The notes below the pieces were generated by a model that did no database searches, was not told the origin of the DNA, and saw nothing but the letters and a program-made list of their open reading frames with translations. A stretch of DNA of 64,000 bases from Faecalibacterium prausnitzii. Its GTDB lineage: Bacteria > Bacillota > Clostridia > Oscillospirales > Ruminococcaceae. Position numbers and translations under genes: made by a program. Positions 725 through 14,647 of the stretch are shown here, one piece after another. The DNA lies in NCBI RefSeq assembly GCF_003324185.1, contig NZ_PXUP01000001.1, positions 1 to 64,000 on the forward strand, written 5' to 3'. Within the stretch, counting starts at the first letter, position 1; each line of letters opens with the position of its first letter.

Positions 725-1373
725 GGTTCTTGCCCTCTACCGCTGCGCTCAAAACCATTTCTGGGTAATTGTTTCCGAATGGTTAAGACGCAAAAATAAG
801 TAGAGGGTTCCGCTGCTCGTGTATGTTGATCGCCGTTTGCTCCGAACGAAGTTCCTACCCCTGTTTTGCAGCGGCGTTGACAAAAAGTCGGTATCACGTC
901 CGGTCGGCTCATGAAATTTTCAATGTGCAGCTCCCGTAAAAGAAAAATACCGCCCACGCAGCGCAGCGATGATTTTGTCGGGTGAATCGGCGGCAAAATG
1001 AATCGGGTGTGTTGCGGGGCGGTAGCTTCTTTCGTGGATTTTTCCTCACTGAAGTGGTGGGGCTCACGGTGATAACCAACCACTTTTGCAGAAGATTTGC
1101 AATCAATCTACAAGTTCAGTGGGATTTGTGATAGAGAATATCATGGTTCGTAGGGTACGTCAAGATGATTCCGAAGAAATTATTTATGAATGGAGACAAT
1201 AGTAAGACTTCTATTATGAATATGATACACTTTACATCATGAAAGAATTTAAGCTGCACAAAGATGATTCAAGCGGATGTGCAATGTGCACAATAAGTTT
1301 TCTACAGCAAAATACAGATGTGGTCATTTAGCTCTTTTACCAGACAACTTTTTTTATAAAATAAAAAAAGTTG
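725..1373. other. Non-coding stretch upstream of the cargo operon, with a possible gene remnant
   Basis: No credible complete gene is seen here. Open frames on both strands lack good ribosome binding sites and recognisable motifs. On the plus strand a frame from the ATG at 1143 reads MVRRVRQDDSEEIIYEWRQ, meets two stops in a row at 1200 and 1203, and then stays open to 1331 (..FYYEYDTLYIMKEFKLHK..). It may be a decayed remnant of an AT-rich gene; its family is not recognised. Confidence 0.3.
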
Positions 1374-1414
1374 TTGACTTGAAATTGCTTGAAATGTTAT
1401 CTTGTTGGTAACAA
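1374..1414 (+). promoter_or_regulatory. Promoter and palindromic operator of the transporter-sulfatase operon
   Basis: TTGACT (1374-1379) and TTATCT (1397-1402) are spaced by 17 bp, a near-consensus vegetative promoter. A perfect inverted repeat TTGTT-GGT-AACAA (1402-1414) starts on the last base of the -10 box and covers the transcription start. The wider sequence also gives TGTTA and TAACA arms at 1395-1399 and 1409-1413. A repressor bound here would block initiation. The GntR/LacI-type regulator encoded at the end of the same operon is the obvious candidate (inferred). Confidence 0.6.
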
Positions 1415-1471
1415 AAGCACGGTGAAGTGCTTGCTACCACACGAAAAGGCAAAACAAAAAAGGAGAGTAAA

Positions 1472-2440
1472 ATGATGAAAAAGCGTATTGCGGCGTTGGT
1501 CACCGCCGGTGTCCTTGCTTTGTCGATGCTTACCGGCTGCGGAAGCAAACAGGAGAGCTGGAAAGTTACCTGCCCGTGGGCACCGTCTGGTGTAGCAGCG
1601 ATGGTCAGCCAAAAGGCTGCTGCCAAGTCCCCTGATTATTCTGATAATAAAATCACACTGGTTGCTGAAGCCGTCAAGGGCGATGCTGCTACTGTCAACA
1701 CTTGGGTGTCCAGTACTAAGGCAAATGATAAGGAACTGGTCTTCGCCGGTGAGGGTCTGTTCGCCATTACCGAGACTCTGGATCCGGCCAAGCTGCAGTT
1801 CAGCTACGACGATTTTGAGTTCGTGGAGAACTTGTACTCCTCCGTCTTCGTCCTGTCCGCTGATTCTTCACTGAACCTCAAGAATCTGGACGATCTGGAG
1901 GCCTATGTCAAGGCAGGCAACCCCGTATCCGTGGCCGTTAACGGCGCTACCGGCTCCGAGGCTTTCCTGGCAGCGGCTCTGTTCGGCTCTATGGGTGCCG
2001 GCGACCAGCTGAAACTGACTCCGTACCAGTCCGCTGCGGAGGCTGCACAGGCTGTAGCTAAGGGTGAAACGAACTTCGCGGTCTCTCACCAGTCTCAGAT
2101 TCTTGAGACCTACCAGCAGGGCGGCGTTGATGTGGTTTGCGCATTCGATGACAAGGCTATCGAAAACGGCCCCTTCGCAGGCGTTGAGGGCGTTGGCTCC
2201 AAGGGCTACCCCTACTTCCGCAACCGCTGCTTTGTCATGGCTCGCAAAGGTACTGACGCCGCAAAGGTTGCCGAGCTGAAAGAGCTGTATGATAAGATCC
2301 TCGCCGATGATGAGATGGTCGAGTGGCTGAACGACACCATGCTGCTGGAAGTCGATACCATGACCGAGGACGATGTGAAGGCTCACATTGAGAACGTCAA
2401 GAGCATCGTCGAGCAGTATAAGGACATCGTGGCAGGCTGA
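1472..2440 (+). CDS. tctC: TctC/Bug-type substrate-binding lipoprotein of a tripartite tricarboxylate transporter
   Basis: This is the extracellular receptor of a secondary TTT transporter. The 322-residue product starts with MMKKR, a hydrophobic stretch and the lipobox LTGC, so it should be anchored to the outer face of the membrane. The rest fits the Bug/TctC fold (for example the LKLTPYQSAAEAAQAVAKGE segment). Family members usually have a PGG..D loop that contacts a ligand carboxylate; here the segment reads PWAPSGVAAM, without the acid. The ATG at 1472 follows AGGAGAG at good distance. It is the first gene of the operon with tctB, tctA and a sulfatase, which suggests a sulfated or otherwise unusual ligand (inferred). 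Confidence 0.85.
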   Translation: MMKKRIAALVTAGVLALSMLTGCGSKQESWKVTCPWAPSGVAAMVSQKAAAKSPDYSDNKITLVAEAVKGDAATVNTWVSSTKANDKELVFAGEGLFAITETLDPAKLQFSYDDFEFVENLYSSVFVLSADSSLNLKNLDDLEAYVKAGNPVSVAVNGATGSEAFLAAALFGSMGAGDQLKLTPYQSAAEAAQAVAKGETNFAVSHQSQILETYQQGGVDVVCAFDDKAIENGPFAGVEGVGSKGYPYFRNRCFVMARKGTDAAKVAELKELYDKILADDEMVEWLNDTMLLEVDTMTEDDVKAHIENVKSIVEQYKDIVAG

Positions 2441-2470
2441 TAAAAAGCCCTCATAGCGACAAAAAGCTGA

Positions 2471-2506
2471 AGCAGGGGGAACGGGGACATCCCCTTCTCC
2501 CTGCTT
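2471..2506 (+). terminator. Intercistronic hairpin between tctC and tctB
   Basis: AGCAGGGGGA and TCTCCCTGCT form a long GC-rich stem followed by TTTT. It lies between tctC and the ribosome binding site of tctB. Such partial terminators let a cell make more binding protein than membrane subunits. Strength is not known from sequence. Confidence 0.6.
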
Positions 2507-2533
2507 TTATGTTTCCAAAAGGAGTTGAAACAA

Positions 2534-3049
2534 GTGAAAAATCTGATAGAACGTGCCGAAGCAAAACTGGATGAATGGGGCGCAAAGCTCGAACAGAAGA
2601 ACATCGAGTACCCGGTAGACCTGATTTGCGGCATTCTGTTTCTGGTCATTGGCATCGTGCTGCTGCTCATCATGCCGCAGCAGGTGCAGATCTCGGAAAA
2701 AGACGTTGTGAATGGCCGCGCTTTCCCGACGATGCTGATTTGGCTCATGCTGGCCATGAGCGCCCTTCTGGTGGGCCGCGAGGCATACAACATGGTGATG
2801 CACCGCCCGACCAAAACTAAAACGCTGAATCTTTTGGTGGAAACAAAAGCACTCGTCATCGTCCTCATTCTGGTGGTCACTTATCTGCTGGCAGAGGTCA
2901 CGGATCTGTTTGTTGTGGGCGCTGTATTCTGCGCACTGGCATTTCTGGTCTTTTTCCGCTGCAAGAAACCCCTTTACTATGCCATCACAGTTTCAATGGC
3001 TGTGCTGATCTGGGTCGTGTTCCACTTTGTGCTGAATGTTAGTTTCTGA
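2534..3049 (+). CDS. tctB: TctB-type small membrane subunit of the TTT transporter
   Basis: A 171-residue protein with about four membrane segments (IEYPVDLICGILFLVIGIVL, then ALVIVLILVVTYLLAEV and two more), the layout of TctB. The GTG at 2534 is preferred because GGAG (2521-2524) lies 9 bases upstream; a TTG at 2525 would leave no spacing. tctA follows after 11 bases. TctB is small, divergent and required with TctA; its exact role in transport is poorly known. Confidence 0.8.
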   Translation: MKNLIERAEAKLDEWGAKLEQKNIEYPVDLICGILFLVIGIVLLLIMPQQVQISEKDVVNGRAFPTMLIWLMLAMSALLVGREAYNMVMHRPTKTKTLNLLVETKALVIVLILVVTYLLAEVTDLFVVGAVFCALAFLVFFRCKKPLYYAITVSMAVLIWVVFHFVLNVSF

Positions 3050-3060
3050 GGAGGCAGAAT

Positions 3061-4569
3061 ATGGGTTTGTTTGACTTTATCGGCCCGGCCTCCGGGCTGC
3101 TTTTCACCCTCGAAAATATCATCTGGATAAACCTCGGCGTCTTTATTGGCTGCGTGTTCGCGGCCATCCCGGGATTAAGTGTTATCCTCTGCATCATCCT
3201 ATTCCTGCCTGTCACTTATACCATGCGTGCGATTCCCGGCATGATGTTCCTGTTGGGCATTTACTGCGCAGGTGGCTATGGTGGATCGGTATCGGCTATC
3301 CTTATCAACACGCCGGGTACGCCCCACGCGGCGGCTACTATGCTGGACGGCTATCCGCTGTCCAAAATGGGCCGCACTAAGGCGGCGTTGAAAATTGCAC
3401 TTTATGCATCTACCTTTGGCGGTATCTTCTCTGCGCTGGTGCTGCTCTTCCTCGGCCCTCAGGTCGCAAAAATTTCGGCACAGCTCGGCACGGCGGAGTA
3501 CTTTATGGTCTGCCTGTTCGGCATGACGATTATTGCAGGCGTTTCTGGTAAGAGCCTTGTCAAGGGCATCATCGCCGCCTGCCTTGGTTTGCTTATTTCC
3601 TGTGTGGGCGCAGACCCCATGACCAGCTATGACCGCTTTACATTTGGTATTCCCCGTCTGTATCTGGGTCTTGACCTTGCCGTTACCCTCATCGGTTTGT
3701 TCGCACTGGTGGAAATCATTGGCAAGGCAGAGCTGAAGCGGAATGAGTTGAACCTTCACGCCGGAAAAATCGGCAATGATGACGGCAAAATCACAAAAGA
3801 TGAATACAAGCGGATGTTCCGACCAGTGCTGATGGGTTCTATCATCGGTTCCTGTGTTGGTATCGTACCTGGCACGGGTGCGTCGGAGGCCTCGTGGTTC
3901 TCCTACAACACTGCGAAGAACCTGTCCAAGCATCCCGAGGAATTCGGCCACGGTTCTGTGGAGGGCGTTGCGGCTGCTGAGTCTGCCAACAATGCCGTCT
4001 GTGGCGCGACCCTGATTCCCTTGCTGACGCTGGGCATCCCCGGCGACGGCTGCGTGGCCATCATGTTGTCGGCCCTGATGATAAATGGCCTGAACCCCGG
4101 TCTCTCGCTGTTCACCACCGACGGCGCTATCATGTATGCCATCATGCTGGGCCTTATCCTCGTGAACATCTTCATGTTCCTGCAGGGCAAATACCTGACT
4201 AGCCTGTTTGCAAAGGTCGTCTCCATCCCTCAGCAGATCTTGACTCCCATCATCGTGATTTTCTGTTTCGCCGGTGCTTACTCGGTGAACAGCAGCTATT
4301 TTGATTTGAGCGTTGCGCTGGTGTTCGGCGTGATGGCGTGGTTCATGCGCAAGCTGGAGCTGCCCGCTGTCCCTGTGCTGCTGGGCATGGTGCTGGGCAA
4401 TATGACCGAGACGAACTTCCGCCGCGCCCTGCTCATCTCGGATGGAAGTCCCAAAATCTTCTTCAGCAGTGTGTATTGCTGGATTTTTATCGCGCTAATC
4501 GTGGTGGTTATCATCGGCATCCTGCGCGGCAAGATGAAGGAAACGAAGAACGCGAAAGTGGAACAGTAA
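3061..4569 (+). CDS. tctA: TctA-type large membrane permease of the TTT transporter
   Basis: A 502-residue permease of the normal TctA length with about a dozen hydrophobic segments. Conserved glycine-rich stretches of the family are seen, such as GGYGGSVSAILINTPGTP near residue 80 and GIPGDGCVAIMLSALMINGL near residue 325. TctA moves the substrate with H+ or Na+ after delivery by TctC. The start follows GAGGAGG. It is cotranscribed with tctC, tctB and the sulfatase. Known substrates of the family are mostly carboxylates; the substrate here is unknown. Confidence 0.9.
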   Translation: MGLFDFIGPASGLLFTLENIIWINLGVFIGCVFAAIPGLSVILCIILFLPVTYTMRAIPGMMFLLGIYCAGGYGGSVSAILINTPGTPHAAATMLDGYPLSKMGRTKAALKIALYASTFGGIFSALVLLFLGPQVAKISAQLGTAEYFMVCLFGMTIIAGVSGKSLVKGIIAACLGLLISCVGADPMTSYDRFTFGIPRLYLGLDLAVTLIGLFALVEIIGKAELKRNELNLHAGKIGNDDGKITKDEYKRMFRPVLMGSIIGSCVGIVPGTGASEASWFSYNTAKNLSKHPEEFGHGSVEGVAAAESANNAVCGATLIPLLTLGIPGDGCVAIMLSALMINGLNPGLSLFTTDGAIMYAIMLGLILVNIFMFLQGKYLTSLFAKVVSIPQQILTPIIVIFCFAGAYSVNSSYFDLSVALVFGVMAWFMRKLELPAVPVLLGMVLGNMTETNFRRALLISDGSPKIFFSSVYCWIFIALIVVVIIGILRGKMKETKNAKVEQ

Positions 4570-4584
4570 AAGGAGGTAAAGACC

Positions 4585-5940
4585 GTGGCATATAACATTA
4601 TTTTCTACTTCAGTGACCAGCAGCGCTGGGATACCTGCGGCTGCTTCGGCCAGCCGCTCAACGTCACACCCAATCTGGACAAGCTGGCAGAGGAGGGCGT
4701 AAAATTTGACAATGCTTTCTCTCCCCAGCCGGTGTGCGGCCCTTGCCGCGCCCTATTCCAGACCGGAAAATACCCCACTGAGACAGGCTGTTTCCGCAAT
4801 AACCTGATGCTGCCCTCGAATATCAAGACTCTGGGCGAGTATATGGAAAAAGATGCCGGCTACGAAACTGCCTATGTCGGCAAGTGGCATCTGGCCTCGG
4901 ATGGCGAGCTGGAAAAGAAGCCGACCATTGACCATACCATTACAGCCGTTCCGTTGGAGTTGCGCGGCGGCTACACCGGCTACTGGCGTGCAGCCGATGT
5001 GCTGGAATTTACCTCCCACGGCTACGACGGCTATGTGTTCGACGAGAACAACAACCGCATCGATTTTAAGGGCTACCGTGCTGACTGCATCAACCAGTTC
5101 GCGCTGGACTACCTCGACCAGTACACCGGCGAAAAGCCCTTCTTCATGACCGTATCCCAAATTGAGCCGCACCATCAGAATGACCACAACCACTACGAAG
5201 GCCCCAACGGCTCGAAGCAGCGATTTGCGGATTTTGTCCTCCCCGAAGACTTGAAGGCTCTGGGCGGCAATGCAGCAGAAGAGTATCCGGATTATCTGGG
5301 ACAGTGCGCAAGCCTCGACGAGAACCTCGGCAAGCTGGTGGAAAAACTGAAAGAAAAGGGTCTGTATGAGAATACTGTTATCCTTTACGCTTCCGACCAT
5401 GGCTCTCATTTCAAGACCCGCAACCGCGACGCCCATCTGAACGGATACGATGACTATAAGCGCTCGTGCCACGACGGCTGCCTGCATGTGCCGCTGGTCA
5501 TCTGCGGCGGCCCGTTCAAGGGCGGCAAGGAAGTCACCGAGCTGGTCAGCACCGAGAGCATCCCCAAGACTCTGTTGGCTTTGGCAGGCGTGGATGTCGG
5601 CGACAAGATGATCGGCGAAAATCTGCTTGACGTTGTGGAAAAGAAAAATCATAATAGAGCTAATGAGGTCTACGCCCAAATCTCGGAGAGCCGCTGCGGC
5701 CGCTGCATCCGCACGGCAGATTATATGTACTCTGTCTATGCCCCCGGTGTCAATGGCGGCGAGGCTGCGGCATCTGATGTGTATGCGGACGACTTCCTCT
5801 ATGATATGCAGAAAGACCCGTGGCAGCTGAACAATGTTGTCGCAGATCCTGCATACGCCGACGTCAAAGCGGAGCTTCGTGAGCGCTTGCTGAACTGGAT
5901 ACAGCACGCAGAAGGCACCCGCCCCACCATCACCGACTGA
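4585..5940 (+). CDS. Cytoplasmic sulfatase of the formylglycine type
   Basis: A 451-residue alkaline-phosphatase-superfamily sulfatase. The metal-binding start (FYFSDQQRWD, Asp11) is followed by the active-site signature C51-G-P-C54-R-A-L-F-Q-T-G, and the second metal site SDHG lies at about residues 270-273. Cys51 must be oxidized to formylglycine; the Cys-type signature fits the anaerobic maturase encoded at 7117-8226. There is no signal peptide, so it acts in the cytoplasm on something that is imported. The single Asp-Gln start, rather than Asp-Asp, resembles choline-sulfatase and phosphonate monoester hydrolase branches, so phosphoester activity cannot be excluded. Translation starts at a GTG 8 bases after AGGAGG. 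Confidence 0.85.
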   Translation: MAYNIIFYFSDQQRWDTCGCFGQPLNVTPNLDKLAEEGVKFDNAFSPQPVCGPCRALFQTGKYPTETGCFRNNLMLPSNIKTLGEYMEKDAGYETAYVGKWHLASDGELEKKPTIDHTITAVPLELRGGYTGYWRAADVLEFTSHGYDGYVFDENNNRIDFKGYRADCINQFALDYLDQYTGEKPFFMTVSQIEPHHQNDHNHYEGPNGSKQRFADFVLPEDLKALGGNAAEEYPDYLGQCASLDENLGKLVEKLKEKGLYENTVILYASDHGSHFKTRNRDAHLNGYDDYKRSCHDGCLHVPLVICGGPFKGGKEVTELVSTESIPKTLLALAGVDVGDKMIGENLLDVVEKKNHNRANEVYAQISESRCGRCIRTADYMYSVYAPGVNGGEAAASDVYADDFLYDMQKDPWQLNNVVADPAYADVKAELRERLLNWIQHAEGTRPTITD

Positions 5941-5956
5941 AAAGGAGCGTTTGCCC

Positions 5957-7075
5957 ATGCTCTCGGCTGCTGAGAAAAAATCTGCTCAGGTATATCGTTG
6001 GCTTCTGGCTTATATCGACGAAAACAAGTTTTCTGGAAATCAACGACTGCCCTCGGAAAATGCACTCTGCCGAAAGCTGGGCGTCAGCCGGGAAACGATT
6101 CGAGTTGCCATTGACCGATTGGTGAATGAAGGAATCGTGTACAAAGTCAAAGGGAGCGGCACCTATTTCCACCGGGAAAAGGTGATGACGCGCGATTTGA
6201 ACACCGAGGATGCACTTTATAAGATCGGCCTTGTTTTGCAAGGTCAGGATACGAGTGCAAATTCGGGATTAATCGAAGGGGTTCGCAGTGTCCTGACGCA
6301 GGAGCAGGTTGACCTCCATGTATTTCTGACCGATAACAAATTCTGCAACGAACGCCGCTGTCTGGAGACTGTGGTACATCAGAATTTTCACGGTTTCATC
6401 GTGGATGGTGTCAAATCGAGCATCCTCAGCCCAAATCTTGACTGCTACAAGGAGCTTTACCGACGTAAGATCCCGGTGATATTCTACAACAACTTCTATC
6501 GGAACTTGCGCTGCCCCCGCGTAACGATCAATGATATCGAATGTGCCCATCAGCTGATAGAACGCCTGATGGATGCCGGACACAGCCACATTGCAGGCAT
6601 CTTCGTGTACGACAACTACCAGAGCGTAGAAAAGTTTCAAGGCATGGCGGAAGCGATGCGAAATCGTGGTTTGGAACTGAACGATGATTACATCAAGTGG
6701 TGTATTTCGGACGAAGCCCACAACGAAAGCTATGTCCGTTCCATTGAAAGATTTCTGAAGAGCATCCCTAAATGCACCGCTATCGTCTGCTGCAACTACA
6801 TCATCTATCGGCTGGTCATGAAAACCCTGCAGAAAATGGGGAAGACTGTACCCGAAGATTATTCGCTGGTCTGTTTTGATTATTCCGAAGAAACTTATCG
6901 GCAGGAGGATGTTACCTGCTCCGTGGAGCAAGGCTTCGAGATGGGACGTCAGCTTGCGCTGCGGCTTATGGAGATGATTTCCACCGGCGAATGCGATGAC
7001 CGGAACTACACTTATGTCATGAAGCCCATCCTCTACGATGGCCATTCCATCCGGAAGCTCAAAAAGGTAAAATAA
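5957..7075 (+). CDS. GntR-type regulator with LacI-like sensor domain
   Basis: A 372-residue chimeric regulator. Residues about 8-75 form a GntR winged helix (RLPSENALCRKLGVSRETIR, then the wing VKGSGTYF). Residues about 80-370 form a periplasmic-binding-like sensor as in LacI and AraR. It probably senses the sulfated compound or its product and represses the operon through the palindrome over the promoter at 1402-1414 (inferred). The ATG at 5957 lies 10 bases after GGAG; a TTG at 5951 is less well spaced. It is the last gene of the operon, 16 bases after the sulfatase. Confidence 0.85.
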   Translation: MLSAAEKKSAQVYRWLLAYIDENKFSGNQRLPSENALCRKLGVSRETIRVAIDRLVNEGIVYKVKGSGTYFHREKVMTRDLNTEDALYKIGLVLQGQDTSANSGLIEGVRSVLTQEQVDLHVFLTDNKFCNERRCLETVVHQNFHGFIVDGVKSSILSPNLDCYKELYRRKIPVIFYNNFYRNLRCPRVTINDIECAHQLIERLMDAGHSHIAGIFVYDNYQSVEKFQGMAEAMRNRGLELNDDYIKWCISDEAHNESYVRSIERFLKSIPKCTAIVCCNYIIYRLVMKTLQKMGKTVPEDYSLVCFDYSEETYRQEDVTCSVEQGFEMGRQLALRLMEMISTGECDDRNYTYVMKPILYDGHSIRKLKKVK

Positions 7076-7114
7076 AGATTCTCCCGGAGGCAGTACTGCT
7101 CTCCGGGAGAATCT
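7076..7114. terminator. Bidirectional terminator between regulator and maturase genes
   Basis: AGATTCTCCCGGAG and CTCCGGGAGAATCT form a 14-bp perfect stem with an 11-base loop. It lies between two convergent genes and has AT-rich flanks on both sides, so it can end transcription from either direction. Confidence 0.85.
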
Positions 7115-7116
7115 CT

Positions 7117-8226
7117 TTACCGGTTTTGTTGTGCCAGAAAATGTGCAGCAGTATGCAGGCGCGGAAGCACATAGGCAAAGAACTGCTTATACGCTGCGCA
7201 AAAGCGGTTGCTTCCAGAGGCGTCCCAATCTCGCTTGCATCCGCCCCGGCAGAGCAGCTGATAAGCACATGCTGCGCATTCCGCCGGGCGTTTGCGGCCC
7301 TGTGCCAGAAATGTCTGGCTTGTGGGAGAATCAAGCGCATCTTCAACGGTACAGTGGCTCAGATTTCCCAGCTTCCACTCATCCAGAACATAAAAGTCAC
7401 AGGGATAAAGGCTTCCGTCACCTTCTACGGTAAGATAATGTCCACAGGAACCGGAGGAAGCGCAGGAGGTAGGCGGCATTCCCAGCAGGATACGCAGATA
7501 GTCCTCAAAATTGCGAACGCTGATATAATTGCCTCGTTGCAGCTGCTGATACCAATTATCAAAGACGCCGCACAGAAAACGACCATAAAGTTCCGGCGTT
7601 AGAGAATATGCCTGCCCTCCAATCGTATCAAGTGGGTCAAGACATGGGATGAATTGCAGATTGTGCTGTCCCAACTCGCAGAGGCTTTTGAAGGCTCGCT
7701 GCGGCTTTCTGGCCAGCTGTCCGGTCACAACACAGAGCAGATTCGTTTCGACCCTGTAGGCATCCAGCAGCGCAAGCGCATGAGTTACTTTATCCCATGT
7801 GCCCTGCCCAGCTGCGTCCAGCCGATAGAGATCATGGTTCTCCTGTGTGCCGTCCAGAGAGAGGCCTACGAGGAAAGAGTTGGCTTTGAAAAAGGAAGCC
7901 CACTCTTCATCCAGACAAATGCCATTGGTCTGGATGCTGTGGAACACAGAGATATTGCGCTGCATGGAACGCTCCGTTTCCAGAAAGAACCGGAAGAAAT
8001 CCAACCCGGCAAGAGTCGGTTCGCCGCCCTGAAACAGAAAATGGACGCTGCCGCCTTCCTCTGTGGCTGCAAAAGCCTTTTCAACCAGTTCTCCTGCCAT
8101 TTCATGGGAAAGCAGTCCCATATTTTTGCAGGCTCGGCTGTTGGAAACATCGTCATAAAAGCAGTACCGGCAACGCAGATTGCACAGGCTGGACGCTGGC
8201 TTGACGAGAAATGTATTATGTTTCAT
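7117..8226 (-). CDS. Anaerobic sulfatase-maturating enzyme (radical SAM, SPASM domain)
   Basis: A 369-residue enzyme that oxidizes the active-site cysteine (or serine) of sulfatases to formylglycine without oxygen. The radical-SAM cluster motif is C15-x3-C19-x2-C22 (LCNLRCRYCFY), followed by the GGEP motif (FQGGEPTLAG, about residues 65-75). The C-terminal SPASM region has the expected cysteines (CGHYLTVEGDGSLYPCDFY; CAACAYQLLCRGGC) that bind two further clusters. Length and motifs match anSME/AslB. GGAGGG precedes the ATG. It converges on the operon carrying the Cys-type sulfatase, its likely client. Confidence 0.92.
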   Translation of the reverse strand: MKHNTFLVKPASSLCNLRCRYCFYDDVSNSRACKNMGLLSHEMAGELVEKAFAATEEGGSVHFLFQGGEPTLAGLDFFRFFLETERSMQRNISVFHSIQTNGICLDEEWASFFKANSFLVGLSLDGTQENHDLYRLDAAGQGTWDKVTHALALLDAYRVETNLLCVVTGQLARKPQRAFKSLCELGQHNLQFIPCLDPLDTIGGQAYSLTPELYGRFLCGVFDNWYQQLQRGNYISVRNFEDYLRILLGMPPTSCASSGSCGHYLTVEGDGSLYPCDFYVLDEWKLGNLSHCTVEDALDSPTSQTFLAQGRKRPAECAACAYQLLCRGGCKRDWDASGSNRFCAAYKQFFAYVLPRLHTAAHFLAQQNR

Positions 8227-8372
8227 AGAGATTCCCTCCGTGCTTCGCAGTTCTTAAAACAAGGATACCGGAAAATACGGGCTTTCGCAAGCAGTAACAG
8301 TTAAAAGCTGTTTGAAATAGTAAGAAAACGAATATAGTTGTCCGAAAATCAAAAAAGGAGAAGAAAACTTGT

Positions 8373-8960
8373 ATGGATGAAAATAAAACATACGGTACAC
8401 GGTCAGCACGGCTTTGGAAGCTGTTTTTGAGTACGCTGTACATTAGCAGCTTTACCTTCGGCGGCGGCTTTGTCATCGTGACCTTTATGAAGAAAAAATT
8501 TGTAGATGAGCTGCACTGGATCGATGAACAGGAAATGCTGGATATGACAGCGTTGGCGCAGTCCTCTCCGGGCGCAATCGCGGTCAATGCTGCAATTCTG
8601 GTAGGTTGGCAGGTAGAAGGCTTGATTGGAATGATCGTGGCAGTGTTGGGCACCATCATCCCACCTATGGTCATTCTTTCAATCATTTCTGTGTTCTACA
8701 ATGCTTTTGCCACCAATCGCTATATCGCGTTGTTACTCAAGGGAATGCAGGCTGGTGTGGCGGCGGTCATTCTGGATGTTGTATTCGACCTCGGCGGCAA
8801 GGTGCTGAAGATCCGCTCATGGGTGTATATTGCCCTGATGGTCGCAGCGTTTGTCGCAAATACGGTGTTTGATGTCAATGTGGTGGTGGTCATCCTTGCC
8901 GCTGCAGTATTCGGCGTGGTGCTGGCTCTGGTCCAGTGGAAAAAAGGTGGTGCAAAATGA
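8373..8960 (+). CDS. chrA: Short CHR-family (chromate/sulfate-type) transporter, subunit 1
   Basis: A 195-residue protein with one CHR domain: SFTFGGGFVIVTFMKKKFV near the start and the QSSPGAIAVNAAILVG motif near residue 68, then about five membrane segments. Paired short CHR proteins work together like the two halves of ChrA, which expels chromate, a sulfate analogue. The start lies 12 bases after GGAG. It overlaps the next gene by 4 bases. Its place next to a sulfatase system makes sulfate or another oxyanion a reasonable substrate (inferred). The 146-bp gap to the divergent maturase gene must hold both promoters. Confidence 0.8.
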   Translation: MDENKTYGTRSARLWKLFLSTLYISSFTFGGGFVIVTFMKKKFVDELHWIDEQEMLDMTALAQSSPGAIAVNAAILVGWQVEGLIGMIVAVLGTIIPPMVILSIISVFYNAFATNRYIALLLKGMQAGVAAVILDVVFDLGGKVLKIRSWVYIALMVAAFVANTVFDVNVVVVILAAAVFGVVLALVQWKKGGAK

Positions 8961-9520
8961 TCTACTTACAGCTTTTTCTCAGCTTTTTGCAGGTGGGTAT
9001 GTTCAGCGTAGGCGGCGGCTATGCGGCCATGCCGCTGATCCAGAGCCAAGTGGTGGAACAACATGGCTGGCTGACGATGCAGGAGTTTACTGACCTCATC
9101 ACGATTGCAGAAATGACCCCTGGTCCCATTGCGGTCAACTCGGCAACTTTTGTTGGTTTGCGTATCGCGCAGGTACCCGGAGCCATCATTGCAACACTAG
9201 GTTGCATTACACCGGCGCTGTTCTTTGTTTCACTTCTATCCTACATCTATCGTAAATACAAGGATATCTCTCTGCTGCAAAGTGTTCTGGCATGCCTGCG
9301 TCCGGTCATTGTAGCGCTTATCTTTGGTGCAGGTCTTTCTATACTGTCTATGGTGGTGTTCGGAGAGAGTGCAAAGGCGCTCGCCAACGTAGACTGGATC
9401 GGCATCGGCAGTTTTGCATCGGCATTTTTTGTCCTACGGAAGCTCAAGTGGAATCCCATCCTGACCATGTGCCTGTGCGGCGTGGCCGGGCTTGGACTTC
9501 ACATTTTGCTCGGAATATAA
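8957..9520 (+). CDS. chrA: Short CHR-family (chromate/sulfate-type) transporter, subunit 2
   Basis: A 187-residue partner of the preceding gene with the same domain: SVGGGYAAMPLIQSQVV and AEMTPGPIAVNSATFVG are the family's paired motifs. The ATG at 8957 overlaps the TGA of subunit 1 (ATGA) and follows AGGTGG, indicating translational coupling. In two-gene CHR systems the halves insert with opposite topologies and both are needed. Function in chromate resistance is known for relatives; a role in sulfate export here is inference from context. Confidence 0.8.
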   Translation: MIYLQLFLSFLQVGMFSVGGGYAAMPLIQSQVVEQHGWLTMQEFTDLITIAEMTPGPIAVNSATFVGLRIAQVPGAIIATLGCITPALFFVSLLSYIYRKYKDISLLQSVLACLRPVIVALIFGAGLSILSMVVFGESAKALANVDWIGIGSFASAFFVLRKLKWNPILTMCLCGVAGLGLHILLGI

Positions 9521-9664
9521 TCTTAAGACAATTTGTCTGTTGGAATCATGAAAATAAATCATTGGGCTTGCAATCAGGGCAAAGCTGTGGTATATACATT
9601 ATACGAAACATTGCTTTGATGAACGTATTACCGTTCAATGACGTATAAAATGGAGGTGCCCGCC
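9521..9664. promoter_or_regulatory. Upstream region of the recombinase with a short inverted repeat
   Basis: AT-rich gap. A perfect TGAACG-TATTAC-CGTTCA inverted repeat lies at 9620-9637, followed by TATAAA at 9644 and GGAGGT at 9652. It probably holds the recombinase promoter and may bind the recombinase or another regulator; this is not established. Confidence 0.4.
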
Positions 9665-11275
9665 ATGACTGCCGTGATCTATGCTCGCTATTCCTCGGAC
9701 AACCAGCGCGAAGAATCCATCGAAGGCCAGATCCGGGAATGCACGGCTTATGCCGAGAAAAACGGCATCACCATCGTCAAGCACTATATTGACCGTGCTA
9801 TCTCCGCCAAGACGGACAACCGCCCGGAGTTCCAGCAGATGATTAAGGACAGCGACAAGACGCTGTTTGACATTGTGCTGGTCTGGAAGCTGGACCGGTT
9901 TGCTCGGAACCGCTACGACAGTGCCCGGTATAAGACCCAACTGAAGAAGAACGGCGTCAAGCTCATGTCTGCCACCGAGATCATCTCCGAGGGGCCGGAG
10001 GGCATTATTCTGGAATCTGTGCTGGAAGGTTATGCCGAGTATTATTCCGCTGACCTTGCCGAGAAGGTCGTGCGTGGACAGACCGAGAACATCCTGAAAG
10101 GCCGCTGCAACGGTGGCCGTGGAACCTTTGGGTACACGCTGGATTCCGAGCGGAAGTTCCACATCGACCCTCTCACCTCGCCTTTTGTGCTTGAATCGTT
10201 CAAGAAGTACAATGAAGGCTCCACTATGAAGGAGATTCGGGACTGGCTGAACGAAAACGGCATCAAGAACCCGGTGGGCGGTGCATTTACTTATAACAGC
10301 GTTGAACATATGCTCAAGAACCGGCGGTACATCGGAGAACTGAAATTCCGGGATGTTGTCGTACCGGATGCTATCCCGCCCATCATTCCACTGGAACTGT
10401 TTGAGGATGTGCAGGAGAAGATCGCAAAAAACAAGAAAGCCCCTGCCCGTAGAAAGGCAGAGGACGATTATCTGCTCACCACCAAGCTGTTCTGCGGCTA
10501 CTGTGGGGCGTTGATGTTTGGCGAGAGCGGCACAAGCCGGACGGGTGAAATTCACCGCTACTATAAATGTGCTACTGCCAAAAAGCACAAGGGCTGCAAG
10601 AAAAAGACCGTCCGCAAACAGTGGCTGGAAGATTTGGTAGTCAACCAGACCATGCAGCTTGTGAAAGACGATGCCGCTATGGAATCCATCATCGCCAAGG
10701 TGATGGAACTGCAAAATAAGGAGAACACTAACATTCCACTCTATGAGAAGCAGCTTCGGGATGCGGAATCTGGTATCCAGAATATGCTGAACGCGATTCA
10801 AGCTGGAATCCTAACCAGTTCCACCAAGGAGCGGCTGGAGCAGCTGGAAGAAACCAAGCGTGAGCTTGAAGCCCGCATTGCGGAAGAAAAGCTGGCGAAG
10901 CCGAAAGTGACCGAAGAATTCATTCGGTTCTGGCTGCTGCGGTTCCGTAAGCTGGATATGAGCCTGAAAGACCAGCGGCAGGCGTTGGTGGATACCTTCA
11001 TCAATTCGATTTACCTGTATGATGATAAGGTTTTGATAACCTTCAATTATAAAGAAGGCACACAGACCGTGACCTTTGGAGAAGCGACAGAAGTTGCATC
11101 CGAGGGAAATGGTTCGGATTTGGATTGCTTTACTGCACCAAGGACTGCTGCACAGGTTATGTGCAGCAGTCCTTTTTATTTATTTTATCGAATCCATCTT
11201 GCAAAAGCAGCGCAGTGCCTTATAATAGAGGCTGTGCCCCGGTGTGCGCGGGTACGGTTAGGATGTATAGGATAA
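9665..11275 (+). CDS. Large serine recombinase (integrase); C-terminus reads through the element end
   Basis: Catalyses integration and excision. The N-terminal resolvase domain starts AVIYARYSSDNQREESIEGQ, with Ser10 as the expected nucleophile and WKLDRFARNRYD as the conserved arginine motif. The recombinase domain follows (about 160-260). A zinc ribbon begins at C277-x2-C280, with later Cys at YYKCATAKKHKGCKK. A coiled coil lies near 370-410. The ATG at 9665 follows GGAGGT; an upstream ATG at 9638 lacks a site. After the DLDCFTAPR segment the frame passes through a host-type terminator and the MATE promoter, so roughly the last 45 codons look host-derived and the natural C-terminus was probably different before integration. 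Confidence 0.9.
   Translation: MTAVIYARYSSDNQREESIEGQIRECTAYAEKNGITIVKHYIDRAISAKTDNRPEFQQMIKDSDKTLFDIVLVWKLDRFARNRYDSARYKTQLKKNGVKLMSATEIISEGPEGIILESVLEGYAEYYSADLAEKVVRGQTENILKGRCNGGRGTFGYTLDSERKFHIDPLTSPFVLESFKKYNEGSTMKEIRDWLNENGIKNPVGGAFTYNSVEHMLKNRRYIGELKFRDVVVPDAIPPIIPLELFEDVQEKIAKNKKAPARRKAEDDYLLTTKLFCGYCGALMFGESGTSRTGEIHRYYKCATAKKHKGCKKKTVRKQWLEDLVVNQTMQLVKDDAAMESIIAKVMELQNKENTNIPLYEKQLRDAESGIQNMLNAIQAGILTSSTKERLEQLEETKRELEARIAEEKLAKPKVTEEFIRFWLLRFRKLDMSLKDQRQALVDTFINSIYLYDDKVLITFNYKEGTQTVTFGEATEVASEGNGSDLDCFTAPRTAAQVMCSSPFYLFYRIHLAKAAQCLIIEAVPRCARVRLGCIG
11138..11182 (+). terminator. Host-type terminator at the element/host junction
   Basis: AAGGACTGCTGCAC and GTGCAGCAGTCCTT form a 14-bp stem with a 7-base loop, followed by a T-rich run. 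The same design recurs at 12666-12700 and 44513-44553, so it belongs to the host chromosome. It lies inside the recombinase reading frame. Confidence 0.8.
11199..11226 (+). promoter_or_regulatory. Promoter of the first MATE gene
   Basis: TTGCAA (11199-11204) and TATAAT (11221-11226) with 16 bp between them, about 60 bp before the MATE start codon. Confidence 0.65.
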
Positions 11276-11286
11276 AGGAAAAAAGT

Positions 11287-12648
11287 ATGAGTTCTCAAAC
11301 GAATACGCTGACGGAAGGCCCTCTGGCCAAGCAGATCTTTCTGGTCAGTCTGCCGCTGGCGCTTTCCAACCTGCTGCAGGTGCTGTTCAATATGTCGGAC
11401 GTGGCGGTGGTGGGGCGCTTTGCCGGGTCCACGGCGCTGGGCGCCGTGGGCTCCACCAGCACGCTGGTGACCCTGTTCACCGGCTTTCTCATCGGCCTGA
11501 GCAACGGCATCAACGTGCTGGTGGCGCGTTTTTACGGTGCGCGCCACCCCAAGGACGTGGAAAAGACCGTCCACTCGGCGGCCATCATCAGCGCCGTTGC
11601 CGGTGTGGCGTTGCTGCTCATCGGTCTGCTGGGTTCCCCTGCCATGCTGCGGCTGCTGAACACCAAAGAGGATCTGCTGCCCGGCGCGATTTTGTATCTG
11701 CGGGTGTATTTTCTGGGTATGCCGGCGCTGGCGCTGTACAACTTCGGCAACGCGGTGTTCAGCTCCATCGGCGACACCAAAAAGCCGCTGATATATCTGT
11801 CCATTGCCGGTGCCCTGAACATTGCACTGAACCTGTTCTTTGTCATCGTGTGCGATCTGAGCGTGGTGGGCGTGGCGCTGGCCAGCGCCATCAGCCAGTG
11901 CGTTTCCGCGTTTCTGATCCTGCGGGCGCTGACCCGGGTGCAGGACTGCTACGCGCTGGACCCGCACAAATTACAGCTGGACCCGGTGCAGGCCAAGAGC
12001 ATCCTTGCGCTGGGCGTACCTGCCGGGCTGCAGAATGCCATTTTTGCCATTGCCAACCTGTTCATTCAGGCGGGCGTCAACTCCTTTGACTCTTTGATGG
12101 TCAAGGGCAACAGCGCCGCCGCCAACGCGGATGGGCTGATCTACGACTGCATGGCGGCCTTCTACATGGCCTGCGCCAGCTTTATGAGCCAGAACTACGG
12201 CGCGGGACGGCCTGACCGGGTGAAGAAGAGCTACTTCATCAGTCTGGGCTACTCCTTCGGCGTGGGGCTTGTACTGGGCGCGGCGCTGTTCTTCTGCGGG
12301 CCGGCCTTCCTTGAGCTGTTCACCACCGAAGCGGCGGTCATTGATGCCGGCATGAAGCGTGTAGCTGTGATGGCCTTTGCCTACGGCATCTCGGCCTTTA
12401 TGGACTGCACCATCGCCGCCTCCCGCGGGCTGGGCAAGACGGTGGTGCCCACCGTCATCGTGGTGCTGGGCTCCTGCGTATTCCGGGTGATCTGGGTGTA
12501 CACCATCTTTGCCCACTTCCACACCATCCCGGCACTGTACCTGCTGTACCCGTGCAGCTGGATACTGACCGCGCTGGCGGAGATCGCCTATTTCGCCAGC
12601 TGCTACAAGCGTGCCATGGCGATTTTCCGCAAGCCCGCGGCGGCGTAA
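11287..12648 (+). CDS. MATE-family multidrug/cation antiporter
   Basis: A 453-residue integral membrane protein with two six-helix halves. The N-terminus (PLAKQIFLVSLPLALSNLLQ) and the SDVAVVGRFAGSTALGAVGS stretch are typical of the MATE/NorM-DinF family. These carriers expel drugs or metabolites in exchange for Na+ or H+. The start lies 7 bases after AAAGGA. It is a single-gene unit with its own promoter and terminator, directly next to the integration junction. The substrate is unknown. Confidence 0.9.
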   Translation: MSSQTNTLTEGPLAKQIFLVSLPLALSNLLQVLFNMSDVAVVGRFAGSTALGAVGSTSTLVTLFTGFLIGLSNGINVLVARFYGARHPKDVEKTVHSAAIISAVAGVALLLIGLLGSPAMLRLLNTKEDLLPGAILYLRVYFLGMPALALYNFGNAVFSSIGDTKKPLIYLSIAGALNIALNLFFVIVCDLSVVGVALASAISQCVSAFLILRALTRVQDCYALDPHKLQLDPVQAKSILALGVPAGLQNAIFAIANLFIQAGVNSFDSLMVKGNSAAANADGLIYDCMAAFYMACASFMSQNYGAGRPDRVKKSYFISLGYSFGVGLVLGAALFFCGPAFLELFTTEAAVIDAGMKRVAVMAFAYGISAFMDCTIAASRGLGKTVVPTVIVVLGSCVFRVIWVYTIFAHFHTIPALYLLYPCSWILTALAEIAYFASCYKRAMAIFRKPAAA

Positions 12649-12733: not shown

Positions 12734-14647
12734 TCAGATCTCCTTCTTCAGGGTCTCGCCCATGATGTAGCCGTAGGTCAGAGCGGCGTCGAAGCCCATG
12801 CCGTACTGCTTGGCGTCCTTCTCCTCGATGGAGCCGCAGACGTCGCCGGCAGCGTACAGGCCGGGGATGGCCTTCTTGTCCTCGGTCAGGACGTGGCAAT
12901 CGGTGTCGATGGCCAGACCTGCGGTGGTCAGGTAGAAGGTGGGGTCAACGCGGATGGCCCACAGACCGTCGCGGGTCTCGATGTAGGGGCAGTTGCGGCG
13001 GCCGAACTCATCGGGCTCGCCAGCCAGAGCGGCGGCGTTGTTTGCCTCGATGGCGTCTGCCAGATTGGGCAGGTTCAGCTCCTCAGAGGCCTTCTCCACG
13101 CTGTCGTAGTGCACAGCCTCGCCCTTCTCGAACATGGCAACGTAACCGTTGAAGCCGTAGGACTCGCTGTCGCGCAGCTTGACGGCAGAGGACTCGTCGA
13201 ACACATAGTAGAAGGTGTCGCCGTTGTCCTTGTTCAGCTTTGCCTTGGCCATGGTGTAGTGGTTATCGGAGACGATGTTGCCGATGTTGTCGCCCTTGAT
13301 GTTGACCATGATGCCGGGGGCAGACTGGTGGATGAAGGCCAGCTCGAACTTGCTCTTGTAGCTGGACAGGAAGGCGGGCAGAGCGCGGTTCTCGCACTCC
13401 ACATAGCCGCCGGCGTCGATACCCATCTGGATGCCCTCGCCGGTCATGCTGGAGGCGCAATTGAAGAAGAAGTCGGCGTAGTCGGGGCTGTACTTCTTCA
13501 GCATTTCGGGGTTCTTGGCAAAACCGCCGGAAGCAAGGCAGACCGCCTTGCCGCGCAGGGTATAGCTTGCGCCGTTCTCGCCCTTGGCGTGGAAGCCCAC
13601 AACACGGCCGCTTTCGTCCTTGATCAGGTCGGTGACGCTGGTGGAGTAGATGATCTTGCCCTTCTCGTACTTCTCCACGCGCTGTGCCATGAACATCATG
13701 GCGTAGCCTGCGCCGCCCTCGTAGCAGCCGGGTGCCAGATACGGGGTGGAAGCGCCGTACTGGGTAGCGCTTTCGTAGTTGCCCATGGTGTTGAAGCCGA
13801 TGCCGATGCCTGCCATCCAGTCCACCAGATCACCGGCGACGGTGTACTGCTTGGTCATGTAGGGCATTTCACCGTTGAAGAACTCGGTGCGGTGGTACTT
13901 CTCCATGGTCTGCCAGAAGTTCATCATGCCCTCCAGCGTGCCCATGGCAGAGCTGCGGAAGCTGCCGTCCACATCGTAGTTGTACTGCAGCTTGGAGCCT
14001 GCGGTGGCAACGCCGCCGTAGGTCATGGACATGGAGCCGCCGGGGATATCGCGCTTCTCCACCAGAATGACGCTGTAGCCGGCCTCCAGCAGGCGGCAGG
14101 CGCAGGTCAGGCCGGAGGTGCCGGCACCCATGATGACGACATCAGCCTCTTCCTCGATGACCTCGTTGGAAGCAGCGATGGTGACCTCCTTGGAGAAGTC
14201 GTCCACGTTATAACCGGCCAGCTCGATGGCCTCCTTCACAGCTGCCTTGACAGCCATGGAGGTGATGGAGGAGCCGCGCAGGTTGGGCACGTTGACACTC
14301 TGGTGCTCGACGATGGCGGCGGGGATGCGGGAGCAGGCATAGTTGCCGATGCCGATGGTCTCCTCGTGAGACAGCACCTCACAGGCAGTGATCTTGCCGT
14401 CAAAGAAGGTGGTGGCAACGTGCACCCAGCTTTCGTGACCCATTGCCTTGGTGACGTACTTGCCGTCTACCGGGGAGGAGGGCTTGGTCACAGCGGAGGA
14501 GGCAGCAGAGGAAGCTGCGGAGGAAGCGGGAGCACCGGTGGTGCTGGAAGCGGAGTTGCCGCAGGCGGTCAGCAGACCGGCAGCAGCTGCGCCCATGGTG
14601 CCCACAGCGGCACCGCGCATAAAGTTGCGACGAGAGATCTTAGCCAT
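12734..14647 (-). CDS. Secreted FMN- and FAD-binding reductase (fumarate-reductase-like flavoprotein)
   Basis: A 637-residue lipoprotein with a Tat-like SRRNFM motif (residues 5-10) and a lipobox ending at Cys29. A Ser/Ala-rich linker (31-57) leads to an FMN-binding domain (about 60-145). The residues that normally read SGAT before ITS are GSS here, so the FMN would be attached to Ser127. Next comes an FAD_binding_2 domain starting with a Rossmann motif (GAGTSG, 174-179). Such extracellular reductases take electrons through flavin carriers and reduce fumarate, urocanate, cinnamates or similar acceptors. No ApbE flavin transferase is in the window. A LysR gene lies divergently upstream and probably controls it. 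AAAGG precedes the ATG. Confidence 0.85.
   Translation of the reverse strand: MAKISRRNFMRGAAVGTMGAAAAGLLTACGNSASSTTGAPASSAASSAASSAVTKPSSPVDGKYVTKAMGHESWVHVATTFFDGKITACEVLSHEETIGIGNYACSRIPAAIVEHQSVNVPNLRGSSITSMAVKAAVKEAIELAGYNVDDFSKEVTIAASNEVIEEEADVVIMGAGTSGLTCACRLLEAGYSVILVEKRDIPGGSMSMTYGGVATAGSKLQYNYDVDGSFRSSAMGTLEGMMNFWQTMEKYHRTEFFNGEMPYMTKQYTVAGDLVDWMAGIGIGFNTMGNYESATQYGASTPYLAPGCYEGGAGYAMMFMAQRVEKYEKGKIIYSTSVTDLIKDESGRVVGFHAKGENGASYTLRGKAVCLASGGFAKNPEMLKKYSPDYADFFFNCASSMTGEGIQMGIDAGGYVECENRALPAFLSSYKSKFELAFIHQSAPGIMVNIKGDNIGNIVSDNHYTMAKAKLNKDNGDTFYYVFDESSAVKLRDSESYGFNGYVAMFEKGEAVHYDSVEKASEELNLPNLADAIEANNAAALAGEPDEFGRRNCPYIETRDGLWAIRVDPTFYLTTAGLAIDTDCHVLTEDKKAIPGLYAAGDVCGSIEEKDAKQYGMGFDAALTYGYIMGETLKKEI

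Follow-up and report, generated by a model that had tools for sequence, protein, structure and literature searches.

A putative cassette for import and cytoplasmic desulfation of a small sulfated sugar in Faecalibacterium prausnitzii

Introduction

What does a gut bacterium gain from a sulfatase that lacks a signal peptide and is encoded next to its own transporter genes? The question is raised by positions 1374-9520 of a 64,000-nucleotide stretch of Faecalibacterium prausnitzii DNA (assembly GCF_003324185.1, contig NZ_PXUP01000001.1, positions 1 to 64,000; hereafter the window), where a tripartite tricarboxylate transporter (TTT), the sulfatase, a regulator, an anaerobic sulfatase maturase (anSME) and a pair of short CHR transporter genes lie together. 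An earlier note on this DNA had read the region as a complete module for import, desulfation and export of a small sulfated compound. Sulfate groups are believed to shield colonic mucin, and work on sulfatases has focused on periplasmic and surface enzymes of Bacteroides; short CHR pairs are known as chromate pumps.

We propose, at a probability of roughly 0.56 for the whole model, that the locus is a catabolic cassette for a small sulfated sugar, with cytoplasmic desulfation, sulfate export and GntR/LacI-type control. The comparison of related genomes revealed a defined gene content, conserved linkage, an exchange of importers and exporters around one sulfatase, and a conserved motif upstream of the transporter genes.

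Gene content of the locus

Open reading frames and family searches placed tctC, tctB, tctA, the sulfatase and a GntR/LacI-type regulator on the plus strand, the anSME on the minus strand, and two short CHR genes, diverging from the anSME, on the plus strand. Each of the gene identities assigned in the earlier note (TTT, signal-less sulfatase, anSME, GntR/LacI-type regulator and CHR pair) was borne out by these searches. The nearest named record to the window was Faecalibacterium sp. I4-1-79. The features of the module are as follows.

1340..1377, plus strand: predicted operator in the tctC promoter region (CCAGACAACTTT, spacer, AAAGTTGTTG)
1475..2440, plus strand: tctC, lipoprotein substrate-binding protein of the TTT (PF03401; alternative ATG at 1472)
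2525..3049, plus strand: tctB, small membrane subunit (PF07331)
3061..4569, plus strand: tctA, large membrane subunit (PF01970, 491 bits)
4585..5940, plus strand: Cys-type S1 sulfatase without signal peptide (PF00884, CGPCR motif)
5951..7075, plus strand: regulator with a GntR DNA-binding domain and a LacI-type sensor (PF00392; PF13377, Peripla_BP_3)
7076..7114, no strand: terminator-like inverted repeat where the regulator and anSME genes converge (opposite-strand self-match)
7117..8226, minus strand: anSME, radical SAM/SPASM anaerobic sulfatase maturase (TIGR03942)
8333..8345, minus strand: possible operator half-site TCGGACAACTATA between anSME and chr1 (10.9 bits)
8373..8960, plus strand: chr1, short CHR transporter half, 195 aa (PF02417, 153.3 bits vs gathering score 28.6)
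8957..9520, plus strand: chr2, short CHR transporter half, 187 aa (PF02417, 165.3 bits vs gathering score 28.6)

A sulfatase without signal peptide and its maturase

The window sulfatase matched PF00884 with 154 bits and carries the sequence C-G-P-C-R (CxPxR) at residues 51-55, of which C51, G52, P53 and R55 were invariant across 59 aligned sulfatases, the window's included. With this motif and the linked anSME, it falls among the Cys-type S1 sulfatases served by an anSME. The maturase scored 366.3 bits against TIGR03942 (cut-off 349.45), and the sister model NF010321 stayed below its cut-off (376.2 vs 441). Since the open frame of the sulfatase extends only five codons beyond the start that was used (456 vs 451 aa), a hidden upstream signal peptide is impossible. 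The absence of a signal peptide, the CGPCR motif and the TIGR03942 match support the earlier proposal of an enzyme that would act in the cytoplasm after maturation by the linked anSME.

Linkage of the TTT importer to the sulfatase

Relatives of the sulfatase were collected in a scan of genome contigs, and the best 80 of 187 were studied; these 80 loci are the basis of the locus counts given below, and the gene calls outside the window, made with a codon-based gene caller, are approximate. A family sample of 297 genomes and a genus sample of 31 genomes were also screened, and the sulfatase was present in 17 of the 297 family genomes at E 1e-40.

The three subunits encoded in the window exceeded the cut-offs of the TTT families PF03401, PF07331 and PF01970, the match of tctC being weak (36.9 bits vs cut-off 27), and by eye the TctC N-terminus carries a lipobox-like signal. 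A TctA gene lay directly upstream of the sulfatase in 45 of the 80 loci, 43 of which had the full order tctC-tctB-tctA-sulfatase; 38 of these 45 loci had the regulator and 31 an anSME within 8 kb. Hosts of the related loci include Oscillospiraceae, Lachnospiraceae, Pasteurellaceae (Lonepinella, Gallibacterium, Spirabiliibacterium), Anaerobiospirillum and spirochaetes. Only two of the 297 family genomes, the window's (G000) and G064 (80%), hold a TctA relative above 47% identity, in both cases at this sulfatase. Taken with the genus genomes described below, these counts show that the linkage is not accidental. The conserved co-occurrence that the earlier note had put forward as a check was thus found for the import part, and the data support the TTT system as a dedicated importer of the sulfatase substrate. 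Import coupled with cytoplasmic desulfation is, as a predicted function, well supported.

Variants of this arrangement were also observed. Five Pasteurellaceae loci (L051-L055) carry tctCBA and the sulfatase, and only L051 has an anSME and a TauE gene within 8 kb, so the sulfatase of the other four must be matured by a gene located elsewhere. L063 and L064 have a TTT system beside two sulfatases: after tctCBA come an additional sulfatase, only 24-26% identical to the window's, two genes and then the family sulfatase. The two intervening genes of L064 encode a LacI regulator and a DUF4432 protein. At L049 (8461-13157) the sulfatase is flanked by a Rieske-domain FAD oxidoreductase and a dihydroxy-acid/6-phosphogluconate dehydratase, with no TTT or ATP-binding cassette (ABC) transporter genes within 8 kb.

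A conserved motif upstream of tctC

Relatives of the regulator were detected within 8 kb of the sulfatase in 39 of the 80 loci. When the tctC upstream regions of the window and of 32 loci with the regulator were compared, an ACAACTT half-site was present in 31 of the 33, the exceptions being L014 and L021, and by eye a TTGTTG-like part followed it in many of them. In L042, which has no TTT genes nearby, the half-site stands upstream of the sulfatase instead.

CHR and TauE genes beside sulfatase maturases

Both halves of the window pair scored above the PF02417 gathering score and so belong to the CHR superfamily. They resemble short paired chromate transporters in having two tandem PF02417 halves, but differ from them in their linkage to sulfatase maturation and in falling below the NCBIfam ChrA/ChrB equivalog cut-offs (63.6 and 59.8 bits for chr1, 95.4 and 74.5 bits for chr2, vs 250). 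Within the genus sample the sulfatase was found in seven of 31 genomes, those of L003 and L004 among them, each of the seven carrying a CHR pair on the sulfatase contig at a distance of a few kb (among the matches listed). Outside the genus, L008 and L059 have CHR genes in the vicinity of the sulfatase, as do L016 and L078, those of the latter two being distant types (30-36% identity).

A TauE/SafE protein was encoded near the sulfatase in 21 of the 80 loci (PF01925 was checked in L023 and L051; L016 has CHR too). Among near relatives the same slot behind the anSME is occupied by CHR in L008 and by TauE in L013, L015 and L017, while L059 has chr1-chr2-sulfatase-anSME in a single run. Exporter changes on the sulfatase tree (16, with 13 for the importer) mix true absence with cut contigs and were not used as evidence.

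The association was next counted across the family sample, which held 83 CHR2 matches in 75 of the 297 genomes, 83 anSME matches in 81 genomes and 47 same-genome pairs; G128, whose anSME is partial (L152), is outside the anSME list and hence absent from this count. CHR lay within 5 kb of an anSME at seven places (six without the window's) vs 0.2 expected, a number that assumes 2.4 Mb genomes and ignores contig breaks and shared ancestry. For the near subfamily of TauE, 8 of 39 places were within 5 kb of an anSME vs 0.14 expected under the same assumptions, and an anSME was present in 32 of the 38 TauE genomes vs 81 of 297 overall. Because contig breaks and shared ancestry are ignored, the P values of these linkages are too small by an unknown amount.

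Four of the seven CHR-anSME places (L163-L166) had a sulfatase of another type nearby, and at L148 the CHR pair and anSME are accompanied, a few kb off, by a sulfatase and a TRAP DctM protein. In the sulfatases of L148 and L163-L166 the catalytic domain opens the protein: PF00884 begins at residues 3-6 in four of them, and L165 was judged by eye. To our knowledge, anSMEs have no use other than sulfatase maturation, so CHR and TauE both appear to serve intracellular sulfatases. Sulfate export by CHR or TauE is moderately supported by these neighbourhoods. The earlier statement that the CHR pair expels sulfate stood in one part, the partnership with sulfatases (seven CHR-anSME places vs 0.2 expected, and TauE in the same slot); the direction of transport cannot be read from sequence.

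L148, L149, L152 and L163-L166 make up a wider CHR-sulfatase association, and in several of them a LysR-type gene adjoins CHR (Pfam-checked in L149 only, the others by eye). In L066, L069, L070 and L080 a TauE/SafE-type gene lies directly upstream of sulfatases of only 51-55% identity.

Sugar genes around related sulfatases

Seven loci whose sulfatases are 77-83% identical to the window's (L019, L027, L029, L036, L039, L044 and L046) have a sugar-type substrate-binding protein (SBP) and permeases, and no TTT. Within 8 kb, five of them encode GH112, the lacto-N-biose/galacto-N-biose phosphorylase, and L027 a GH2 beta-galactosidase. In the sulfatase tree the seven lie inside the TTT clade, L019 and L027 grouping with the Faecalibacterium sequences in a starred set of six. 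An SBP plus permease within 8 kb was scored in 11 loci without an adjacent TTT, L057 and L059 by weak or distant matches only. GH2 genes were also found near the sulfatases of L060 (66% identity) and L080 (51%).

In the family sample, GH112 was present in 9 of the 17 genomes with the sulfatase (the window's included) vs 32 of the 280 without it (Fisher P 8e-5; the list of 41 GH112 genomes takes in one below-cut-off match, G131). It lay within 5 kb of the sulfatase in six of the 17: G152 and G257 (78% identity) and G020, G031, G266 and G275 (54-56%). The gene order in G031, G266 and G275 reads SBP-permease-permease-sulfatase-GH112; G031 and G266 have a small frame ahead of the sulfatase. Other sulfatase neighbours were a glucosamine-6-phosphate isomerase-type gene (L126) and fucose genes (L118).

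These neighbourhoods are reminiscent of the galacto-N-biose/lacto-N-biose (GNB/LNB) pathway of gut anaerobes, in that related sulfatases have GH112 and an SBP-type ABC transporter as neighbors; in L046, ABC, AraC, GH112, an APH-type kinase, sulfatase and anSME genes stand together. Unlike that pathway, the window sulfatase has its own TTT importer, and the GH112 operon of the window genome (L133) is without a sulfatase; GH112, a sugar ABC transporter and an APH-type kinase are encoded elsewhere in that genome. The common element of the neighbours points to a host-type amino sugar or its galactosides. A sulfated host-type sugar is a moderately supported substrate, and the likeliest candidate would be a sulfated hexosamine-containing sugar of host mucin, such as sulfated lacto-N-biose or galacto-N-biose, or a free sulfated N-acetylhexosamine.

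The top three profile matches of the sulfatase were carbohydrate 6-sulfatases of S1_11 (5g2v, 7lha, 7p24). Its AlphaFold2 model (mean pLDDT, the predicted per-residue confidence, 93.3) found BuS1_11, an S1_11 6-sulfatase, as best fold match (TM 0.77, 23% identity); BT4656 and BT3177 ranked 6th and 15th. These Bacteroides 6-O-sulfatases thus lead the profile matches and stand among the top fold matches, yet are only 21-23% identical to the window enzyme. S1_11 enzymes have a recognition triad of His (O3) and Asp/Arg (O4), and when the profile alignment was read by eye, the His preceding the GIRT stretch of the S1_11 chains had no His opposite it in the window sequence. The sulfatase was therefore not filed under S1_11, and no position of the sulfate on the sugar is proposed. 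In published descriptions, BT4656 is periplasmic and BT3177 acts on intact mucin glycans (PMC10154612); unlike BT4656 as described there, the window sulfatase lacks a signal peptide.

Weighing the cassette against other explanations

A number of observations weigh against the proposed cassette, and they are given here with the explanations that they favor. The first is that the CHR pair stands outside the pathway, as a chromate or general oxyanion transporter riding on the same element. Genomes share the block as one unit that includes a serine recombinase (see below), and CHR genes are common (54 of 61 relatives, among the matches listed). CHR was found within 8 kb of the sulfatase in only six of the 80 loci, two of which (L016, L078) hold distant types. 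Outside the genus, the CHR2 proteins most similar to the window's (79, 76 and 74%) occur in genomes without this sulfatase at E 1e-40. In 12 CHR regions away from this sulfatase (L147-L158), an anSME lay beside the pair in three (L148, L149, L152) and not in nine; the latter include L147, with the 79% relative, and the second pair of the window genome (L158), some of the contigs being short. A strict CHR-sulfatase pair was rejected, since the closest CHR relatives outside the genus belong to genomes without this sulfatase. Of the 28 TTT loci flanked on each side by 6 kb or more, 15 lacked both CHR and TauE within 8 kb, so an exporter in every locus was likewise rejected, and nine had no anSME within 8 kb.

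The operator motif bears on the same question. A 10.9-bit half-site was found between anSME and chr1 in the window, L003 and L004, and 2 of 213 other upstream regions reach 9 bits; because the DNA of the three is near-identical and confined to Faecalibacterium, the site amounts to a single event. Only those three of the 12 anSME upstream regions scored gave 10.9 bits, the other nine reaching at most 5.8, and seven TauE upstream regions scored at most 4.6. The half-site is only a hint that the maturase and exporter might belong to the regulon; as proof of CHR in the regulon the operator was rejected as too weak, with one independent site.

Against the view of CHR as a passenger, its linkage to anSME in other genera exceeds chance (six places vs the 0.2 expected with the assumptions stated above), other sulfatases accompany it in L163-L166, the linkage recurs in L008 and L059, and TauE takes the same slot. 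We consider a passenger role unlikely, albeit with a chance that has to be reckoned with. The earlier description of the module as complete is accordingly kept for the conserved tctCBA-sulfatase linkage and not for the exporter, given the 6 of 80 loci with CHR within 8 kb and the 15 of 28 TTT loci without CHR or TauE.

A second explanation is that the TTT and sulfatase act on a sulfate ester other than a sugar (aryl, steroid, choline or hydroxy-acid), the CHR pair exporting the sulfate. TctC proteins with known ligands bind mostly carboxylates, small carboxylates and aromatic acids are typical ligands of TTT binding proteins, and among solved structures the TctC sequence comes nearest to terephthalate-binding proteins (E about 1e-6). 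No TTT-type locus had GH112 or LacZ within 8 kb, so the substrate proposed above is carried over from relatives with other importers. The presence of GH112 in the window genome proves little, because 24 of the 31 genus genomes have it. Two reports on Gram-positive mucin degraders, Limousia and Hoskinsella, saw no increase of the sulfatases on mucin, their kinship to the window sulfatase not being compared (PMC12997984, PMC13096917). On the other side stand the sugar ABC transporters and GH112 beside sulfatases of about 80% identity, the LacI-type sensor of the regulator, and scores far below the cut-offs of the choline-sulfatase model TIGR03417 (118.7 bits vs 433.45) and the arylsulfatase model (143.8 bits vs 481). 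Choline and aryl sulfates were rejected on these scores and on the sugar genes that neighbor close relatives. The aryl, steroid, choline and hydroxy-acid sulfates that the earlier note had suggested for screening are disfavored by relatives that adjoin sugar ABC, GH112, beta-galactosidase or hexosamine genes, and a non-sugar ester appears rather improbable.

It is a good deal less probable that the CHR pair works as an importer, be it of the sulfated substrate or of sulfate: in L059 the pair is directly upstream of the sulfatase, the place of the TTT elsewhere, with a sugar ABC transporter starting 6.6 kb off, and sequence does not give the direction of transport, but the window holds both TTT and CHR, and relatives have TauE (PF01925, an exporter family by name) in the position of the CHR pair. 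A phosphodiesterase or phosphonate monoester hydrolase as the main activity is very improbable, since the membership in one superfamily, the PF01663 (Phosphodiest) match of 57 bits and the phosphonate monoester hydrolases among the PDB sequence matches are set against a far higher PF00884 score (154 bits), a Cys nucleophile with a linked anSME, and carbohydrate sulfatases as the nearest folds.

Proposed pathway and relation to known systems

In the cassette that we favor, the TctC lipoprotein would bind the sulfated sugar and TctAB would import it, as the dedicated linkage suggests. Conversion of the active-site cysteine to formylglycine by anSMEs is established for these families; the window anSME would modify its sulfatase in this manner, and the activated cytoplasmic enzyme would remove the sulfate. 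The freed sugar would enter ordinary catabolism, to which the GH112, sugar ABC transporter and kinase genes noted above could contribute, and the CHR pair, or TauE/SafE in many relatives, would export sulfate or an equivalent oxyanion, outward transport being presumed. The GntR/LacI-type regulator would presumably keep the operon repressed from the ACAACTT...GTTG operator and release it once the sugar appears.

The earlier statement that no pathway of this kind had been described was too strong. An operon of Streptococcus pneumoniae (SPH1922-SPH1929) comprises a phosphotransferase system (PTS), a sulfatase, a sulfatase-modifying enzyme and TauE, and its authors propose uptake of sulfated sugars such as those of mucin, and call the exported product sulphite (PMC3302838). 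As described there, that operon shares with the window the linkage of importer, sulfatase, maturation enzyme and putative oxyanion exporter, the exporter role of CHR being our own proposal. It differs in its parts: TTT in the window vs PTS, a CHR pair vs TauE, and GntR/LacI vs MarR/ROK regulation, the two sulfatases being compared by operon description only. Given this precedent, the window module would be the same idea built from other parts and not a new kind. No report of a TTT-sulfatase or CHR-sulfatase link was found in the open-licence PMC literature, and such use of sulfated host sugars has scarcely been reported for this group of bacteria.

A broader and more tentative generalization, to which we give somewhat less than even odds, is that gut Clostridia together with some Pasteurellaceae and spirochaetes share an unrecognised pathway class that takes up sulfated mucin sugars intact, cleaves off their sulfate in the cytoplasm and pumps it out of the cell, with short CHR pairs acting as physiological sulfate exporters and the TTT as a sulfosugar importer. 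If true, Faecalibacterium-like butyrate producers would have a cryptic route to sulfated host glycans that feeds sulfate reducers; CHR pairs would gain a physiological role and TTT systems a new substrate class, linking host mucin sulfate to free sulfate in the gut.

Probable mobility of the block

The module is common to six other Faecalibacterium genomes as one block. Two further genes were noted nearby.

82-516: NikA/MobC-like gene
9638..11275, plus strand: large serine recombinase, outside the pathway, which may mobilise the block (PF00239, PF07508, PF13408)

In five of the six genomes homology ends sharply on the right at 11140-11142, inside the 3' end of the serine recombinase gene, and it continues in L003; on the left it ends at 605-627 in three and extends to the window edge in the remaining three. 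Past the right boundary, the DNA of the five differs from the window's, and L004, L160 and L162 have identical next 58 bases. In L160, window DNA 11182-11658 lies on the opposite side of the block, as if the block had been inverted or moved. The cassette is probably part of a mobile element, which would suit its patchy presence (7 of the 31 genus genomes). Farther along, at window positions 12734-14647, a flavoprotein with a Tat-like signal resembles, by eye, FMN-binding fumarate reductase-type enzymes.

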